DNA of 15,809 bases from an uncultured Oscillospiraceae bacterium (GTDB lineage Bacteria; Bacillota; Clostridia; Oscillospirales; Oscillospiraceae), in contig CAKTMO010000030.1 in NCBI GenBank assembly GCA_934573935.1, positions 1 to 15,809 of the forward strand. Reading direction: 5' to 3'. The translations under genes were made by a program, and so were the position numbers. The notes below the pieces were generated by a model that had not been told where the DNA came from, did not search any database, and worked only from the letters and a program-made list of their open reading frames with translations. Shown here one piece after another: positions 5,253 to 14,542 of the stretch (position 1 is its first letter; every line of letters begins with the position of its first letter).

Positions 5253-6134
5253 ATGTCATTTGCCATTTCCACCGATACATCCGCCAACCTGCCCACCGCC
5301 GAGCTGCAGTGGCACCAGCTGCACCTGCTGCCCTTCTCCTATATCATCGGCGACGTGGCCCACCAGTGCCTGGACCTGACCGCCTTTGACGGCGACGCCT
5401 ACTACGAGTCGCTGCGCCATACCCCCGCCAGCACCTCCATGGTCACGGTGGACCAGTACTGCCGGCTGTGGCAGCCGCTGCTGGAGGCGGGACAGGACGT
5501 GCTGCACGTGTGCATGTCCTCCGGCATCAGCGGCGCCTATCAGTCCGCCATCATCGCCGCCCGCGAGCTGCGTCAGGAGTACCCCCAGCGCCGTCTGGTG
5601 GTGTTCGATACCCGCGCCGCCTCGCTGGGCGAGGGCATCCAGGTGCTCCACGCCGCCACCTGCCGCGAGGCGGGCTACTCTCTGGACGCCACCGTGCGGG
5701 AGCTGACGGAGCTGCGTCCCCATATCCGCCAGGTGTTCACGGTGGACGACCTGATGCACCTGCGCCGCGGCGGACGGGTATCCGGCGTGGCCGCCGCCGT
5801 AGGCACCGCCCTGCGCATCAAGCCCATCCTGAAGGGGGACGAGGCGGGCCGCATCGTGGTGACCGGCAAGGTGCAGGGCCGCAAGCGTTCTGTCCGCGCC
5901 CTGGCGGAGAACTTCGCCGCCAATGCCGAGCTGCAGGGCCGCTGGCCCGTGGGCATCGCCCACGCCGGCTGCCGCGCCGAGGCGCTGGAGCTGGCCGCTC
6001 TGATCAAGGAGTCCGACCCCAAGGCCCGCGTCATCGTGGTGGACTACGAGCCCGTCACCGGCAGCCACGTGGGCCCCGGCGCGCTGGCCCTGTTCTACGT
6101 GGACAAAGAGCCGTGGCCTTCGGCTATTTGCTGA
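5253..6134 (+). CDS. DegV family fatty-acid-binding protein (FakB-like)
   Basis: Cytoplasmic protein of the DegV fold. Members studied in Gram-positive bacteria (FakB) hold a fatty acid for phosphorylation by FakA and feed phospholipid synthesis; that function is inherited by family only. 293 residues, slightly over the usual 280. Family marks in order: N-terminal ISTDTSANLP, the ligand-loop TSMVT near residue 62, the SSGISGAYQSA segment, DDLMHLRRGGRVSG in the second domain, and the C-terminal VTGSHVGPGALALFY, the most diagnostic. GAGGT (5241-5245) stands 7 bases before the ATG. No clear terminator follows; the cysteine leader promoter begins 43 bases downstream. No fakA-like kinase gene is visible in the window. 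Most genomes carry several degV paralogues, so the fatty acid preferred cannot be stated. Confidence 0.93.
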   Translation: MSFAISTDTSANLPTAELQWHQLHLLPFSYIIGDVAHQCLDLTAFDGDAYYESLRHTPASTSMVTVDQYCRLWQPLLEAGQDVLHVCMSSGISGAYQSAIIAARELRQEYPQRRLVVFDTRAASLGEGIQVLHAATCREAGYSLDATVRELTELRPHIRQVFTVDDLMHLRRGGRVSGVAAAVGTALRIKPILKGDEAGRIVVTGKVQGRKRSVRALAENFAANAELQGRWPVGIAHAGCRAEALELAALIKESDPKARVIVVDYEPVTGSHVGPGALALFYVDKEPWPSAIC

Positions 6135-6177
6135 ATATTTCCCGTTTTCCTCCTGCGGACTTTGTGTGTCCTGCCCA

Positions 6178-6206
6178 TAGACAACGGGAGGCTGTCAGCC
6201 TATACT
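6178..6206 (+). promoter_or_regulatory. Promoter of the cysK-cysE operon leader
   Basis: -35 TAGACA (6178-6183), 17-base spacer, -10 TATACT (6201-6206). Predicted start near 6213, about 26 bases before the leader peptide ATG and 240 before cysK, so the transcript must pass the leader terminator at 6367-6405. Confidence 0.72.
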
Positions 6207-6238
6207 ATCAGTAGGATTTTAGAAAAGGAGATTCCCGT

Positions 6239-6340
6239 ATGATGCTTCGCGCCTGTTGTGAGAGCTGTCTGTCCATGTGTTGCATGGGCACGCTTCGCCG
6301 CGCGCTGGAAGGTCATACGTTTTCCCGCCGTGCCGCATGA
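6239..6340 (+). CDS. Cysteine-rich leader peptide of the cysK-cysE operon (33 aa)
   Basis: A small reading frame too short for routine gene calling: M-M-L-R-A-C-C-E-S-C-L-S-M-C-C-M-G, then a basic tail to TGA at 6338. Five of the first 15 codons are Cys (6254, 6257, 6266, 6278, 6281), including two adjacent pairs. A strong ribosome site AAAGGAG (6224-6230) lies 8 bases before the ATG, and a promoter lies just upstream. A strong terminator lies between it and cysK. Scarcity of charged tRNA-Cys would stall ribosomes on the paired Cys codons. The peptide itself probably has no function. Alternative: a small metal-binding protein, since Cys-rich peptides can bind metals, but the position ahead of a terminator and cysK favours attenuation. 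No T-box consensus is visible in this leader. Confidence 0.82.
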   Translation: MMLRACCESCLSMCCMGTLRRALEGHTFSRRAA

Positions 6341-6385
6341 CAGGCACGAAAGGTGTGTTGATTCACGCAGAGGGTGTATGAGCTT
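6309..6385 (+). promoter_or_regulatory. Candidate antiterminator arms of the cysteine attenuator
   Basis: AAGGTCATACGT (6309-6320), in the distal leader frame, can pair with GTGTATGAGCTT (6374-6385): 11 pairs including two G-U, one G-G mismatch. This would take up half of the terminator's 5' arm and its loop. The same segment (6313-6319) is also fully complementary to CGTATGA (6236-6242) around the leader start codon. The three arms thus allow 1:2 plus terminator, or 2:3 antiterminator. Pairing was worked out by eye; no folding energy was computed. Confidence 0.6.
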
Positions 6386-6405
6386 CATACACCCTCTGCT
6401 TTTTT
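6367..6405 (+). terminator. Leader (attenuator) terminator upstream of cysK
   Basis: GCAGAGGGTGTATG (6367-6380), loop AGCTT, CATACACCCTCTGC (6386-6399), then six T (6400-6405). A perfect 14-bp stem, among the strongest in the window, placed between the Cys-rich leader peptide and cysK and not at the end of an operon. Confidence 0.93.
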
Positions 6406-6453
6406 GCACATATCATGAAACGAACTGATTGAGAAAAAGAAAGGGCAGAGATC

Positions 6454-7383
6454 ATGGCCATCTATCATTCCGTATCGCAGCTTGTGGGCAACACCCCGCT
6501 GCTGAGCGTAGACAACTATGTCCGCCAGCGTCAGCTTCCCGCAGCCGTTCTGGTGAAGCTGGAGCGCTGCAACCCCGCCGGCAGCGCCAAGGACCGCGTC
6601 ACCCTGGAGATGCTGGACCAGGCGGAGGCCTCCGGCGCATTGCAGCCCGGCGGCACCGTCATCGAGCCTACCTCCGGCAATACCGGCATCGGCCTGGCCG
6701 CCATGGCCGTGTCCCGCGGCTACCATGTCATCCTCACCATGCCCGCCTCCATGAGCGCCGAGCGCCGCGCGCTGCTGAAGGCCTACGGCGCCCAGCTGGT
6801 GCTGGTGGAGACCGGCGGTATGGCCGGCGCCGTGGCCAAGGCCCAGGAGCTGGCCGCCTCGATCCCCAACAGCTTCCTCCCCGGCCAGTTCAATAACCCC
6901 GCCAACCCCGCCGCCCACTATAAGACCACCGGCCCCGAGATCTGGCGGGATACCGACGGCCATGTGGATATCTTCGTGGCCGGTGTGGGCACCGGCGGCA
7001 CCATCAGCGGCGTGGGCCGCTATCTGAAGGAGCAGGACCCCAACGTCCGCGTCGTGGCCGTGGAGCCCGCCGCCTCCCCACTGCTGAGCCAGGGCCACGC
7101 AGGCCCCCACGGCCTGCAGGGCATCGGCGCCAACTTCGTGCCCGAAAACTACGACGCCTCGGTGGTGGATGAGATCGTCACCGTCACCGATGAGGACGCC
7201 TACCTCACCGGCCGCCTGCTGGCCCGCACCGAGGGCGTCATGGCCGGTATCACCTCCGGCGCGGCCCTGTGGGCCGCCGACGAGCTGGCCCGCCGTCCCG
7301 AGAATAAGGGCAAGACCATCGTGGCCCTGCTGCCTGACGACGGCGGCCGTTACCTGTCCACCCCCCTGTGGTCGGAGGAATAA
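6454..7383 (+). CDS. cysK: Cysteine synthase (O-acetylserine sulfhydrylase)
   Basis: PLP enzyme making L-cysteine from O-acetylserine and sulfide in the cytoplasm; 309 residues, the normal length. The PLP Lys is K46 in NPAGSAKDR. The substrate loop TSGNTG is at 73-78, the phosphate-binding GVGTGGT at 177-183, ITSGAAL carries the conserved Ser near the PLP ring, and PDDGGRYLST is the usual C-terminal mark. The start VGNTPLL is typical of the family. An AAAGGG-type ribosome site precedes the ATG. It is the first gene of a two-gene operon with cysE, 2 bases apart, and lies behind the Cys-codon leader and terminator, so its transcription is likely raised when charged tRNA-Cys is low. CysM-type activity on other sulfur donors cannot be excluded by sequence alone. 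Confidence 0.97.
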   Translation: MAIYHSVSQLVGNTPLLSVDNYVRQRQLPAAVLVKLERCNPAGSAKDRVTLEMLDQAEASGALQPGGTVIEPTSGNTGIGLAAMAVSRGYHVILTMPASMSAERRALLKAYGAQLVLVETGGMAGAVAKAQELAASIPNSFLPGQFNNPANPAAHYKTTGPEIWRDTDGHVDIFVAGVGTGGTISGVGRYLKEQDPNVRVVAVEPAASPLLSQGHAGPHGLQGIGANFVPENYDASVVDEIVTVTDEDAYLTGRLLARTEGVMAGITSGAALWAADELARRPENKGKTIVALLPDDGGRYLSTPLWSEE

Positions 7384-7385
7384 CC

Positions 7386-8246
7386 GTGTACGAGGATCAT
7401 ATTCGCGCTGCGGCCTGCGTGATGGCCGAAACTATGAAAAACGCCAACGTCCCCATGTATGGCAGCCGCCTGCGCCTGCCGGAGCGCAAGGCCATCATTG
7501 CACTGCTCAAGGAGATGCGCCAGCTGCTGTTTCCCGCCTATTTCGGCGATCCGGCGCTGATGACGCTGGCGGCGGCGGATTACGCCGCCCTGCTGCTGGA
7601 GCGGATCGAGACCAGCCTTGCCCGCCAGATCGCCCTGGCGCTGCCGGAGGAGCGGGAGGCCGATGCCCCCCGCATCGCCCGCGAGGTGGTGGACCAGCTG
7701 CCCCGCATCCAGCAGCTGCTGCTGACGGACGTGGACGCCATCTTTGACGGCGACCCCGCCGCCCAGAACCGCGAGGAGATCATCCTGGCCTACCCCGGCC
7801 TGTTCGCCATCTTCGCCTATCGGGTCAGCCACGAGCTGTACCTGCGCCATGTGCCCACCATCCCCCGCATGATGACCGAGTACGCCCACAGCCGCACCGG
7901 TATCGACATCCACCCCGGCGCACAGATCGGCAGCTATTTCTTCATCGACCACGGCACCGGCATCGTGGTGGGCGAGACCACCGTTATCGGCGACCATGTG
8001 AAGCTGTACCAGGGCGTGACCCTGGGCGCCCTCAGTCCCCGTGGCGGCCGCAGCCACAGCAGCGGCAAGCGCCACCCCACCGTGGGCGACGGCGCCACCA
8101 TCTACTCCGGCGCCTCCATCTTCGGCGGCGAGACCACCATCGGCGAAAACGCCGTCGTGGGCGGCAACGCCTTCCTCACCGAGTCCGTGGCCGACAACGC
8201 CCGCGTCGTCATTCGTCCCCCCGAGACCATCATCCACAACCTGTAA
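7386..8246 (+). CDS. cysE: Serine O-acetyltransferase (EpsC/CysE type)
   Basis: Makes O-acetyl-L-serine from serine and acetyl-CoA, the substrate of CysK. 286 residues: an alpha-helical N-terminal half (to about 160), then a left-handed beta-helix with hexapeptide repeats (GIDIHPGAQIG, GIVVGETTVIG, KLYQGVTLGA, TIYSGASIFGG). Catalytic-site residues H176 (DIHPG) and D188-H189 (DHGTG) are present. I chose GTG at 7386 because GGAGGA (7374-7379) lies 6 bases upstream, inside the end of cysK; another GTG at 7368 in frame lies within cysK and has no such site. The protein ends PPETIIHNL straight after the beta-helix and lacks the longer tail ending in Ile that enters the CysK active site in the classical cysteine synthase complex, so complex formation is doubtful. 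A terminator follows. Confidence 0.95.
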   Translation: MYEDHIRAAACVMAETMKNANVPMYGSRLRLPERKAIIALLKEMRQLLFPAYFGDPALMTLAAADYAALLLERIETSLARQIALALPEEREADAPRIAREVVDQLPRIQQLLLTDVDAIFDGDPAAQNREEIILAYPGLFAIFAYRVSHELYLRHVPTIPRMMTEYAHSRTGIDIHPGAQIGSYFFIDHGTGIVVGETTVIGDHVKLYQGVTLGALSPRGGRSHSSGKRHPTVGDGATIYSGASIFGGETTIGENAVVGGNAFLTESVADNARVVIRPPETIIHNL

Positions 8247-8273: not shown

Positions 8274-8290
8274 CAGATATGCCCTATTTC

Positions 8291-8816
8291 GTAGGGCGGG
8301 GTGTCCTCACCCTGCCGCACGGTGAACGCAGCGGGTACATTGACCACCCGTAGGGCCCGGCGTCCCCAACGGCCCGCACCGGTAAACGCAGTAAGTACGG
8401 TGTAACCCTTCGTAGGGCGGGGTGCCCTCACCCCGCCGCACGGTGAACGCAGCGGGTACGTTGACCACCCGTAGGGCCCGGCGTCCCCAACGGCCCGCAC
8501 CGGTAAACGCAGTAAGTACGGTGTAACCCTTCGTAGGGCGGGGTGCCCTCACCCCGCCGCACGGTGAACGCAGCGGGTACGTTGACCACCCGTAGGGCCC
8601 AGCGTCCCCGACGACCCGCACCGGTGAACGCAGTAAGTACGGTGTAACCCTTCGTAGGGCGGGGTGCCCTCACCCTGCCGCACGGTGAACGCAGCGGGTA
8701 CGTTGACCACCCGTAGGGCCCAGCGTCCCCAACGGCCCGCACCGGTGAACGCAGTAAGTACGGTGTAACCCTTCGTAGGACGGGGTGCCCTCACCCCGCC
8801 GCACGGTGAACGCAAA
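8291..8816 (+). repeat. 121-bp tandem repeat array, four full units plus a partial fifth
   Basis: Units begin at 8291, 8412, 8533, 8654 and 8775, exactly 121 bp apart; the last stops near 8815. Each unit is itself two related halves: A (59 bp) starting GTAGGGCGGGGTGCCCTCAC and B (62 bp) starting GTAGGGCCCGGCGTCCCCAA. Both run through a variable palindromic core to GGT(G/A)AACGCAG. Half A carries the stem GGCGGGGTG/CACCCCGCC; the 8291 and 8654 units have a G-T wobble in it. Single A-like and diverged copies occur at 2581 and 2476. Units differ by only a few substitutions, suggesting recent expansion of an A-B dimer. Because 121 is not a multiple of three, reading frames across it are artefacts. 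Function unknown. Confidence 0.93.
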
Positions 8817-12296: not shown

Positions 12297-13508
12297 TCAG
12301 CGGCTCAGGGCCTGATCCAGATCGGCGATGATGTCGTCCGGATCCTCCAGACCCACCGACATGCGGATCATGCCGTCGGTAATACCCGCGGCCTCCCGCA
12401 CCTCCTTGGGGATCATGGTGTGGGTCATGGCCGCCGCCTGCTCCACCAGCGTCTCCGTGTCGCCCAGAGATACCGCCAGCGTGCACAGCTTCAGGCTGTT
12501 GATGAACTTCTTACCGGCCTCCAGCCCGCCCTTCACGTCGAAGGAGATCATGCCGCCGCCGCCCCGCATCTGCTTTTTGGCGATGTCGTACTGGGGATTG
12601 GACTCCAGGAAAGGATAGCGCACCGTCTCGATGCGGGGGTCCGCCTCCAGCCAGCGGGCGATCTTCAGGGCATTCTCATTGTGCTGCCGCATCCGCACGC
12701 CCAACGTCTTCATGCCTCGGCATACCAGAAAGGCCGTAAACGGCGCCATCACCGCGCCGAAATGCATCAGCGTGCCCAACCGGCACTGACGCAGGAACTC
12801 CGTGTCGTTGGAGATCACCGCGCCGCCCAGCAGGTCGCCGTGGCCGCCGATGTACTTGGTCAGGCTGTGGATCACCACGTCCACCCCCAGATCCAGGGGA
12901 TTGGTGTTGTAGGGGGTGGCAAAGGTGTTGTCCACAAACACCTTCGCGCCGTGGCGGTGGGCGATCTTCGCCACCTCCGCCAGATCCACCAGCACCATGG
13001 TGGGGTTGGCGGGGGTCTCCACATAGATGACCTTGGTGTTGGGCTTGATGAGGGGCTCCAGCTCCTCCAGATGGTCCGCCTGGAAGGAATCGTGCTCAAT
13101 GCCGAACCGCGGCAGCCAGTCGCTGGTGATGTCCTCAGTGCCGGAATACTTGGCCTTGGTGAAGATCACGTGGTCGCCGCATTTCAGCGCCGCGAACAGC
13201 GCGCCCGCCACCGCGCCCATGCCGGAGGCGTAGGACACCGCGCCCTTGCCGTGCTCCAGCGCCGCCAGCTTCTGCTCCATATAGTCCAGGGAGGGGTTGG
13301 TGATCCGGCTGTAGGCAAAGCTCTCGGCGTAGTCGCCGCAGGCCTCCACGGCGTCGTCGGTGGAATCGAAATAGAACGTGGACGTCTGATAGATGGGCGG
13401 GATCAGGGAACCGTAGGGGTCACGGGGCTCTCCGGCATGTACCTCCACCGTGTCGAATTTGACCTGCTCCGGCTGAAACTCTGGATGCTTCATGATAAGC
13501 TGGCTCAT
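12297..13508 (-). CDS. Cys/Met-metabolism PLP-dependent enzyme (methionine gamma-lyase / cystathionine gamma-synthase family)
   Basis: 403 residues, fold type I. PLP Lys is K218 (HSLTKYIGGHGD), with Asp193 (VFVDNTF) for the pyridine nitrogen, Tyr66-Arg68 (AYSRITNP) for the phosphate from the partner subunit, Tyr121 (KAKYSGT) stacking on the ring, and the C-terminal SLGDTETL and RMSVGLED marks. Overall sequence runs closest, from memory, to methionine gamma-lyase: PPIYQTSTF, SYASGMGAV, VIYVETPANP. However, the Cys after the stacking Tyr that is characteristic of studied methionine gamma-lyases is replaced by Gly123. Activities possible: gamma-elimination of methionine or cystathionine, or O-acetylhomoserine sulfhydrylation. 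GGAGGT sits 6 bases before the ATG. First gene of a pair with the B3/B4 protein; a 15-bp inverted repeat lies just upstream. No substrate can be assigned from sequence. Confidence 0.92.
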   Translation of the reverse strand: MSQLIMKHPEFQPEQVKFDTVEVHAGEPRDPYGSLIPPIYQTSTFYFDSTDDAVEACGDYAESFAYSRITNPSLDYMEQKLAALEHGKGAVSYASGMGAVAGALFAALKCGDHVIFTKAKYSGTEDITSDWLPRFGIEHDSFQADHLEELEPLIKPNTKVIYVETPANPTMVLVDLAEVAKIAHRHGAKVFVDNTFATPYNTNPLDLGVDVVIHSLTKYIGGHGDLLGGAVISNDTEFLRQCRLGTLMHFGAVMAPFTAFLVCRGMKTLGVRMRQHNENALKIARWLEADPRIETVRYPFLESNPQYDIAKKQMRGGGGMISFDVKGGLEAGKKFINSLKLCTLAVSLGDTETLVEQAAAMTHTMIPKEVREAAGITDGMIRMSVGLEDPDDIIADLDQALSR

Positions 13509-13627: not shown

Positions 13628-14542
13628 TTAGCCTTCGCCAACCCTCAGCTGCGCGGCCATACAGTCCAGAAACGCCCGCTCGATGGGCCGCAGCGCCTTG
13701 CCCCGTATGCCGATCCAGCCGATGTCCACCCGATCCCCTGTGTCGATGGGGACACAGGCCACCTCCCGCGCCAGACGGGACGAGATGACCCCCGTGCCGA
13801 TATCATAGGCCAGGCAGCTGCGCATCAGCGCCGTGCTTACATACAGGTCGCTGATGTACACCACCTTGCGGGGATAGAAGTTGGGCAGCATCATCTCCTC
13901 CGAGAAGAAGCCGGGGGAGTCGGCGTTCTGCTCATACACGATGCAGGGGTAGTTCATCAGCTCCTCCGGCATCACCCGTTCCCGTCCCGCCAGCGGATGG
14001 GTCACCGACAAAAAGGCGTGGGGCACCGCCTGGGTCACGGCGTGGAATTCCAGGTTGTTGTCCTCCAGCACCTTCATCATGTGGCGGCGGTTGGCGTCCG
14101 ACAGGAAGATGACCCCCAGGTCGCTGTACTGCTTGCGCACATCCTCGATCACGGCGGTGGTCTGGGTCTGGTTCAGTCCCAGGGTGTACCGGTCCGCCTC
14201 CAGCGTGCCCACAAAGGTCTCAAAGGCGCTCACCACAAAGTCGTAGTGCTGGCTGCTGACGAAGAAGGAGGGTTTCTCCCGCTCCGCGTCGCTGTGGAAG
14301 TATTCGCCGATATAGTCCGCGTCCCGCAGCAGCCGGTTGCTGAGCTTCAACAGCTCCCGCCCCTCGTTGGTGATGGCGATGCCTGTGGAGGAGCGGGTGA
14401 AAATGGTGATGCCCAGCTCCTCCTCCAGAGCGTTCACCAGATTGCTGATGCTGGGCTGGGAGACGTACAGCTTCTGCGCCGCCTTGCTGAAGGAGCCGCA
14501 CCGCTCCACCATGGATACGTATTTCAATTGCTGCAAGGTCAT
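13628..14542 (-). CDS. LysR family transcriptional regulator
   Basis: 304 residues, standard length. Winged helix-turn-helix at residues 1-62: LQQLKYVSMVERCGSFSKAA, then LYVSQPSISNLVNALEEELG and IFTRSSTGIAITNEG. The remainder is the periplasmic-binding-like effector domain with VIFLSDAN, PLAGRERVMPEELMNYPCIV and a late YDIGTGVIS strand. AGGAGG stands just before the ATG, inside the last bases of the upstream gntR gene's downstream gap (11 bases), so gntR and lysR form an operon. Its stop lies 119 bases before the Cys/Met PLP enzyme gene in the same direction, making that gene a plausible target: LysR proteins often control neighbours, and several control Cys/Met genes. The effector is unknown. 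Confidence 0.93.
   Translation of the reverse strand: MTLQQLKYVSMVERCGSFSKAAQKLYVSQPSISNLVNALEEELGITIFTRSSTGIAITNEGRELLKLSNRLLRDADYIGEYFHSDAEREKPSFFVSSQHYDFVVSAFETFVGTLEADRYTLGLNQTQTTAVIEDVRKQYSDLGVIFLSDANRRHMMKVLEDNNLEFHAVTQAVPHAFLSVTHPLAGRERVMPEELMNYPCIVYEQNADSPGFFSEEMMLPNFYPRKVVYISDLYVSTALMRSCLAYDIGTGVISSRLAREVACVPIDTGDRVDIGWIGIRGKALRPIERAFLDCMAAQLRVGEG

Follow-up and report, generated by a model that had tools for sequence, protein, structure and literature searches.

The window (the whole 15,809-nt stretch of DNA analysed here, from an uncultured Oscillospiraceae bacterium) carries a cysK-cysE gene pair behind a short Cys-rich frame and an intrinsic terminator, with the following features:

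6178 to 6206, forward strand: promoter of sigma-70 type, TAGACA-17-TATACT, 10/12 match
6226 to 6230, forward strand: leader-peptide ribosome-binding site AGGAG, which together with 6236-6243 makes up segment 1
6236 to 6243, forward strand: core of segment 1, CGTATGAT, including the leader start codon; partner 6312-6319
6239 to 6340, forward strand: leader peptide frame of 33 codons, MMLRACCESCLSMCCMGTLRRALEGHTFSRRAA, with counterparts in 16 relatives
6267 to 6293, forward strand: P1 hairpin within the leader frame, with the Cys14-Cys15 codons at its loop
6309 to 6324, forward strand: segment 2, the antiterminator strand, coding ..GHTF..; partners segment 1 or 6370-6385
6370 to 6385, forward strand: segment 3, made up of the terminator's first arm and loop; pairs with segment 2
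6367 to 6405, forward strand: intrinsic terminator (3:4) with a T6 tract; stem 6367-6399, 15 pairs by scan
6454 to 7383, forward strand: cysK, cysteine synthase A (TIGR01139, 414.9 bits, cut-off 350.95)
7386 to 8246, forward strand: cysE, serine O-acetyltransferase of the EpsC type (NF041874 above its cut-off; TIGR01172 cut-off not passed)

A sequence-only reading had described here a promoter, a ribosome site and a 33-codon frame with five Cys codons (two CC pairs), followed by cysK, and all of these were confirmed when the DNA was read again. The Cys codons are numbers 6, 7, 10, 14 and 15 (6254-6259, 6266-6268 and 6278-6283), the frame is predicted to be translatable from its AGGAG site and ATG, and the terminator lies between it and the first gene; this terminator is strong, its stem being counted by our scan as 15 pairs where that reading gave 14. 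One promoter-like match was found in 6100-6500 against 0.2 expected in shuffles, and promoter-like sequence stands at a comparable position in relatives (by eye only). Finding at least five Cys among 32 non-start codons has a probability of 4e-5 at the Cys usage of the window (1.2%). Nevertheless, the Cys count alone is not proof, because nine of the 474 small frames of the window have at least five Cys (nested starts counted; two of the nine are the leader frame). For the 2:3 duplex of the window, 67 of 200 dinucleotide shuffles equalled or bettered its energy, and such energies are too noisy to prove 2:3 from the window alone. Judged by the sequences compared below, it is conservation in relatives that raises both the Cys count and the 2:3 duplex above chance.

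The nearest relatives found belong to the genus of G041 (32 genomes), which was reached via the Oscillospiraceae locus L014. At the cut-off used, the cysK search of this genus gave 21 places in 19 genomes, and 16 of them show, upstream of cysK, a Cys-rich frame with a ribosome site before it and a terminator behind it (L081, L111-L122, L124, L125 and L127), with Shine-Dalgarno-like sites 5' of most leader frames. These 16 and the window make up the set of 17 leaders used below, which leaves aside L123 (cut by the contig end), L126 and L128-L130; L126 and the more distant cysK copies L128-L130 show no comparable leader layout. The closest leaders, L111 and L112, whose cysK genes are 88 and 87% identical to that of the window, retain MLYRACCHSCLSMCCMGTIWCAYNGHTFSVRAA, and in other leaders the peptide has diverged strongly with its Cys codons kept, for example as CCCC in L116. 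L127 has a different type of peptide (16.3 bits with the covariance model R1 described below). When 223 distinct regions upstream of cysK were examined, 26 contained a ribosome site followed by a Cys-rich frame, namely the window, the 16 of the genus and nine from outside it; six of these nine have no terminator 3' of the frame according to a script that missed the terminators of L116, L121 and L124, and the ribosome-site filter dropped L036. Exact copies of the 16-base segment 2 pattern were found only at four cysK leaders of the genus; when mismatches were allowed, at least one match was another cysK leader (G173).

Several cysK upstream regions carry other arrangements. L127, L036, L042 and L058 have a different type of Cys leader, then a hairpin and T-run; that of L058 reads MMCCDMCCERRVCFAIPI. 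L042 and L058 also possess an extra small frame, M.LLKERC, nearer to cysK, which by eye resembles MSLLRERCC in L029. Upstream of cysK in L179 we noted MKNMSAKCICCSICTCRCCCRRMP, then a hairpin and T-run, and in L128 MNFTAEFRCCCCP, behind which no terminator was seen by eye.

When folded by computation without a ribosome, most of the 17 leaders form a helix (1:2) that joins the ribosome site and start codon to the tail of the leader frame. The complementarity of 6313-6319 to 6236-6242, claimed in the sequence-only reading, proved exact on re-reading. In relatives the two arms change together, as GAAAAC/GTTTTC in L124 and L125, GAAGCC/GGCTTC in L113, GAAGCTG/CAGCTTC in L114 and AGCGGAT/ATCCGCT in L081. 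Compared with random synonymous recodings that leave the peptide unchanged, the natural 1:2 pairing is also the stronger (mean z -2.22 over the 17 cysK leaders, below zero in 16), and among 42 leaders of other genes its z is below zero in 37. Recoding, folds and changes on both sides thus point to a 1:2 pairing that would free the terminator. The comparative check proposed earlier, conserved Cys codons and covarying arms, was largely passed: Cys codons and terminator recur at the 16 places above, and the competing arms show compensatory changes in L113, L114 and L081.

The 2:3 pairing had been placed at 6309-6320 with 6374-6385; it is real and extends further, joining 6309-6324 to 6370-6385 in 15 of 16 pairs (G-U counted, one G-G mismatch). 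Its continuous pairs, G-U again counted, number 12 in the window and 18 in L124 and L125. In an alignment not fitted to 2:3, the pairing is present in 86% of cells against 31-64% when slid. It shares bases with the terminator arm and is thus exclusive with 3:4. It hardly exceeds synonymous recodings in the cysK leaders (mean z -0.56) and is negative in 33 of the 42 leaders of other genes, so that the recoding test supports 2:3 less well than 1:2. In a 10-row alignment its covariation score was matched by 297 of 500 shuffles, its pair types by 434 and its changes on both sides by 69, none of the three standing out. With few compensatory pairs, the conservation of 2:3 is weaker than the other marks of an attenuator found here. 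RNAalifold gave consensus structures without 1:2 in every alignment, showing P1 and the terminator in A2, the terminator only in A5 and P1 only in A6 (L127 was left out of A2-A5 and L119 out of A5). A segment of at least seven bases common to 1:2 and 2:3 was found in 21 of 59 leaders, where shuffles gave 9.6 on average and 15 at most, and the shared segment exceeds chance only moderately. When terminators were swapped between homologs, a leader's own terminator was not singled out (mean -20.7 against -19.0 kcal/mol for swapped ones).

In all of the 17 leaders but L117 and L122, hence in 15, a Cys codon falls within or at the loop of the P1 hairpin, and both P1 and the terminator carry compensatory changes in the A2 consensus. 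In the Met-rich leaders introduced below, 97.5% of P1 cells are paired and its covariation score was reached by none of 500 shuffles; slid by two columns, 86.7% of cells still pair, because the arms are repetitive.

To follow the pairings under a stalled ribosome, the RNA was truncated 5' of the second terminator arm and all bases 5' of the ribosome were masked, the resulting antiterminator figures being predictions from energy rules. For the window they amount to 0.31 in the free RNA, 0.59 with a stall at Cys14, 0.80 with a stall at Cys15 and 0.16 with the ribosome at the stop codon. The rise from 0.31 to 0.80 agrees with the stall effect that the sequence-only reading had expected, and similar contrasts are predicted for L111 (0.36 free, 0.94 stalled, 0.26 at the stop) and L125 (0.57, 0.98 and 0.04); in L113, L114, L117, L121 and L124, on the other hand, the free and stalled states differ little. 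The antiterminator remains above 0.6 with the ribosome at the stop codon in L113, L114, L116 and L124. The at-stop figures alone say little, as that mask is built so that it hides all or most of segment 2; in the window, a ribosome at the stop codon itself would cover segment 2 only in part. Equilibrium folding gave no terminator contrast, the terminator being the main form in every state (0.76-0.99), and therefore the switch would have to be kinetic, taking place during transcription as in trp.

The element extends beyond cysK. The covariance model R1, built from 15 cysK leaders and run on the 32 genomes of the genus and on 400 genomes of the family, matched in 85 of the 400 at E 0.01. We inspected 68 places, leaving out the partial matches L288, L290, L297, L311 and L312 and matches that were weak or to the terminator only; 16 were known cysK leaders (15 of them training sequences) and 52 were others. 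Forty-five of the 52 precede sulfur genes: 22 metQ, 11 metN, five cysE, two cysK, two O-acetylhomoserine sulfhydrylase, two metA and one decayed cysK (L279). The remaining seven (L322, L325 and L328-L332) score 17.8-26.5 bits and overlap the weakest sulfur-gene matches (20.6 upward). We used BLAST to group the downstream proteins and compared ten representatives with NCBIfam models: MetA and O-acetylhomoserine sulfhydrylase lie above curated cut-offs, MetQ and MetN are the best families for their representatives but fall below the cut-offs, and the three CysE pass the EpsC-type cut-off and not that of TIGR01172. The closest relatives found, G179 and G180, have a Met leader before metQ (L313 and L314). 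At L279, as judged by eye, an intact Cys leader with its terminator occupies about 1501-1667, and a truncated cysK remnant lies downstream of it.

A second model, R2, was built from 36 Met leaders and applied at E 1e-5 to the 400 family genomes and at E 0.001 to 391 genomes drawn from the class. It matched in 69 of the former and in four of the latter, one of them G041. The 70 family matches comprise 26 training sequences, one known cysK leader (G173) and 43 others, and these 43 together with three class-wide loci give 46 inspected loci outside the training set, some of them closely related to training loci. All 46 precede met genes, 45 as called by script (29 metN, eight metQ, six O-acetylhomoserine sulfhydrylase and two metA) and L383, before metN, after a wrong frame picked by the script was replaced by the right one. 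Among the class-wide matches, Met-rich leaders stand before metN in G495 and at two sulfhydrylase loci in G586; in G472 the frame begins Met- and Cys-rich and continues through the hairpin. G472, G495 and G586 come from the class-wide sample and may belong to the same family. We read the element as a so far undescribed family of putative ribosome-mediated attenuators for sulfur amino acids, and the comparisons indicate that the cysK-cysE leader, treated on its own in the sequence-only reading, belongs to a larger family that also bears Met codons upstream of methionine genes.

In L313, L291 and L281, the stretch of about 150-175 nt that separates the terminator of the Met leader from metQ contains another short frame, preceded by a ribosome site and including RMCP and a small hairpin GTGTCC..GGACAC (by eye).

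Codon content separates the two groups of leaders. Cys and Met make up 19.6% and 9.6% of the codons in 22 distinct cysK/cysE leaders and 10.6% and 25.3% in 37 distinct met-gene leaders (Mann-Whitney p 4e-8 for Cys and 7e-10 for Met), so that each group is enriched in codons of the amino acid whose genes follow. Met exceeds Cys in 36 of the 37 met leaders and Cys exceeds Met in 16 of the 22 cys leaders; as counter-evidence, Met equals or exceeds Cys in the other six. Leader starts were chosen by a score favouring Cys plus Met, a ribosome site and ATG, identically for both groups, and those of L284 and L301 were set by hand. The P1 arms, in which ATGTGCATG pairs with CATGTGCAT, account for some of the Met found in Cys leaders and some of the Cys found in Met leaders, so that codons inside P1 are not independent evidence; the MMM and CCC runs extend in part beyond P1. 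On these comparisons, the Cys or Met content of a leader follows the downstream pathway.

The frame might be conserved for its product, a functional small protein rich in Cys and Met such as a metal binder or redox peptide, with an ordinary terminator behind it. The peptides are indeed rich in metal-binding residues and have ribosome sites. However, their sequence and length vary widely, codon choice preserves RNA pairings beyond what the peptide needs, Cys versus Met content tracks the pathway, and all 42 leaders of other genes have a terminator-like hairpin 17-55 nt 3' of the frame (on a lenient definition, three T in eight), all of which makes a small protein extremely unlikely. The peptide could alternatively act while still in the ribosome, stalling it in response to a sulfur metabolite rather than to a shortage of tRNA. 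By eye, a short tail motif [RC][RC]A[QH] recurs behind the Cys/Met run of many Cys and Met leaders alike, and it may serve either the RNA or the peptide. Yet the motif is absent or altered in other leaders, that of the window included, leader lengths and tails vary, and the tracking of the downstream gene by Cys or Met richness is what codon starvation predicts, so that we regard nascent-peptide arrest as unlikely.

Clostridia are usually taken to regulate cysteine and methionine through T-boxes, SAM riboswitches and repressors, and the genus of G041 has T-boxes in 32 of 32 genomes and SAM riboswitches in 24 of 32. It is conceivable from this background that the leader is a metabolite riboswitch, a T-box or a protein-bound RNA in which the small frame is incidental. 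But no Rfam family matched the window, and at cut-off none matched 40 related loci apart from one tRNA. Neither the T-box (RF00230; 20 cysK loci and 20 met or cysE loci, some of them without a leader) nor the SAM riboswitch (RF00162) was found in the window or in these 40. What is conserved is the type of codon and the competing arms, not a fixed aptamer-like core, and we consider an explanation of this kind very improbable.

The reading that we favour, at a probability of about 0.9, is a ribosome-mediated transcription attenuator of the trp type that would open cysK-cysE when charged cysteinyl-tRNA is short. This attenuator reading, already proposed from the window alone, is well supported by conserved Cys leaders, recurring pairings and a codon content that follows the pathway, as far as comparative sequence can speak. 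Ribosomes would load on the 33-codon leader and, with cysteine plentiful, would finish and depart, allowing the ribosome site and start codon to pair with the tail of the frame (1:2) and the terminator (3:4) to form. With cysteine short, the ribosome would stall on the Cys codons and segment 1 would stay open; segment 2 would then pair with the first terminator arm (2:3), and polymerase would read into cysK. The parts, their conservation, the alternative pairings and the codon-pathway match can be read from the aligned leaders; from them we infer a switch between pairings brought about by stalling, with cysteinyl-tRNA as its signal.

In the trp, his and leu attenuators of enterobacteria, a leader rich in the regulated amino acid is likewise combined with a terminator and mutually exclusive 1:2, 2:3 and 3:4 pairings. 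The present leaders differ in using Cys and Met, in a segment 1 that takes in the ribosome site and start codon of the leader itself and, for most cysK leaders, in a segment 2 located within the coding sequence. For Cys leader peptides of mycobacteria or other actinobacteria, cysteine-responsive attenuation is reportedly the subject of a 2020 study by Canestrari, going by its title. The sequence-only reading took Cys-codon attenuation to be known mainly from mycobacteria, which is too narrow: in the passages cited here, uORFC-8-2 of Rhodobacterales precedes cysS with tandem Cys codons usually at positions 14-15 and an intrinsic terminator, and ribosome-mediated attenuation is proposed (PMC8632094). 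The tandem Cys at 14-15 and the terminator are as in the window; uORFC-8-2 is alphaproteobacterial and, in those passages (PMC8632094), appears before cysS and in no Met version, whereas the present leaders precede cysK, cysE and met genes. Actinobacterial leaders, those of mycobacteria among them, share the runs of Cys codons before cysteine genes but differ in their phylum and in being leaderless frames, for which the cited passages report no conserved terminator hairpin (PMC1262725). Within the Firmicutes, the excerpts used here from work on ilv-leu of Staphylococcus aureus (PMC5794164) and on Rli60 of Listeria (PMC5864092) describe, with experimental support, attenuation by Leu-rich and branched-chain leader peptides with a terminator and antiterminator, alike in kind and differing in amino acids and genes. 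The fthC uORF motif of Streptococcus also joins a small frame to a terminator, and in the portion cited it is suggested to respond indirectly to methionine via initiation, through initiator tRNA and not through Met codons in the frame, before a folate gene (PMC11109978). An RNA survey whose cited part includes uORF material provides further precedent (PMC6429828). The earlier suggestion that the case is undescribed in its lineage agrees with our searches of an open-access library, which showed no Cys- or Met-codon attenuator in Clostridia and none reading Met codons, subscription papers and supplements being outside the scope of that search.

Very likely this design, carrying Met codons instead, also governs genes for the uptake and synthesis of methionine in this lineage. 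We further think it rather probable that a single ancestral attenuator gave rise, through codon swaps, to a Cys version before cysK and cysE and a Met version before metQ, metN, metA and the O-acetylhomoserine sulfhydrylase gene. The two would together make up a leader-peptide sulfur regulon of Oscillospiraceae-type Clostridia beside many T-boxes; the Met form would be, within the reach of our searches, the first attenuator to read Met codons, and the ribosome site of the leader itself would act as segment 1. If so, common gut lineages would possess a leader-peptide regulon for both sulfur amino acids, a further regulatory layer in sulfur metabolism, and a set of natural variants that sense different amino acids with one and the same RNA design. 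The Met version is complicated by the fact that methionine shortage would also lower initiation on the leader, and how a switch made of AUG codons would work while initiation is being cut is a puzzle in its own right.

Elsewhere in the window, a tandem array with a period of 121 (4.4 copies, 97% matches) occupies 8288-8814, shortly 3' of cysE. Near cysK-cysE, a frame on the reverse strand (12297-13508) resembles by eye a PLP enzyme of cysteine/methionine metabolism, and a LysR-like gene (13628-14542, reverse strand; also by eye) lies upstream of it.
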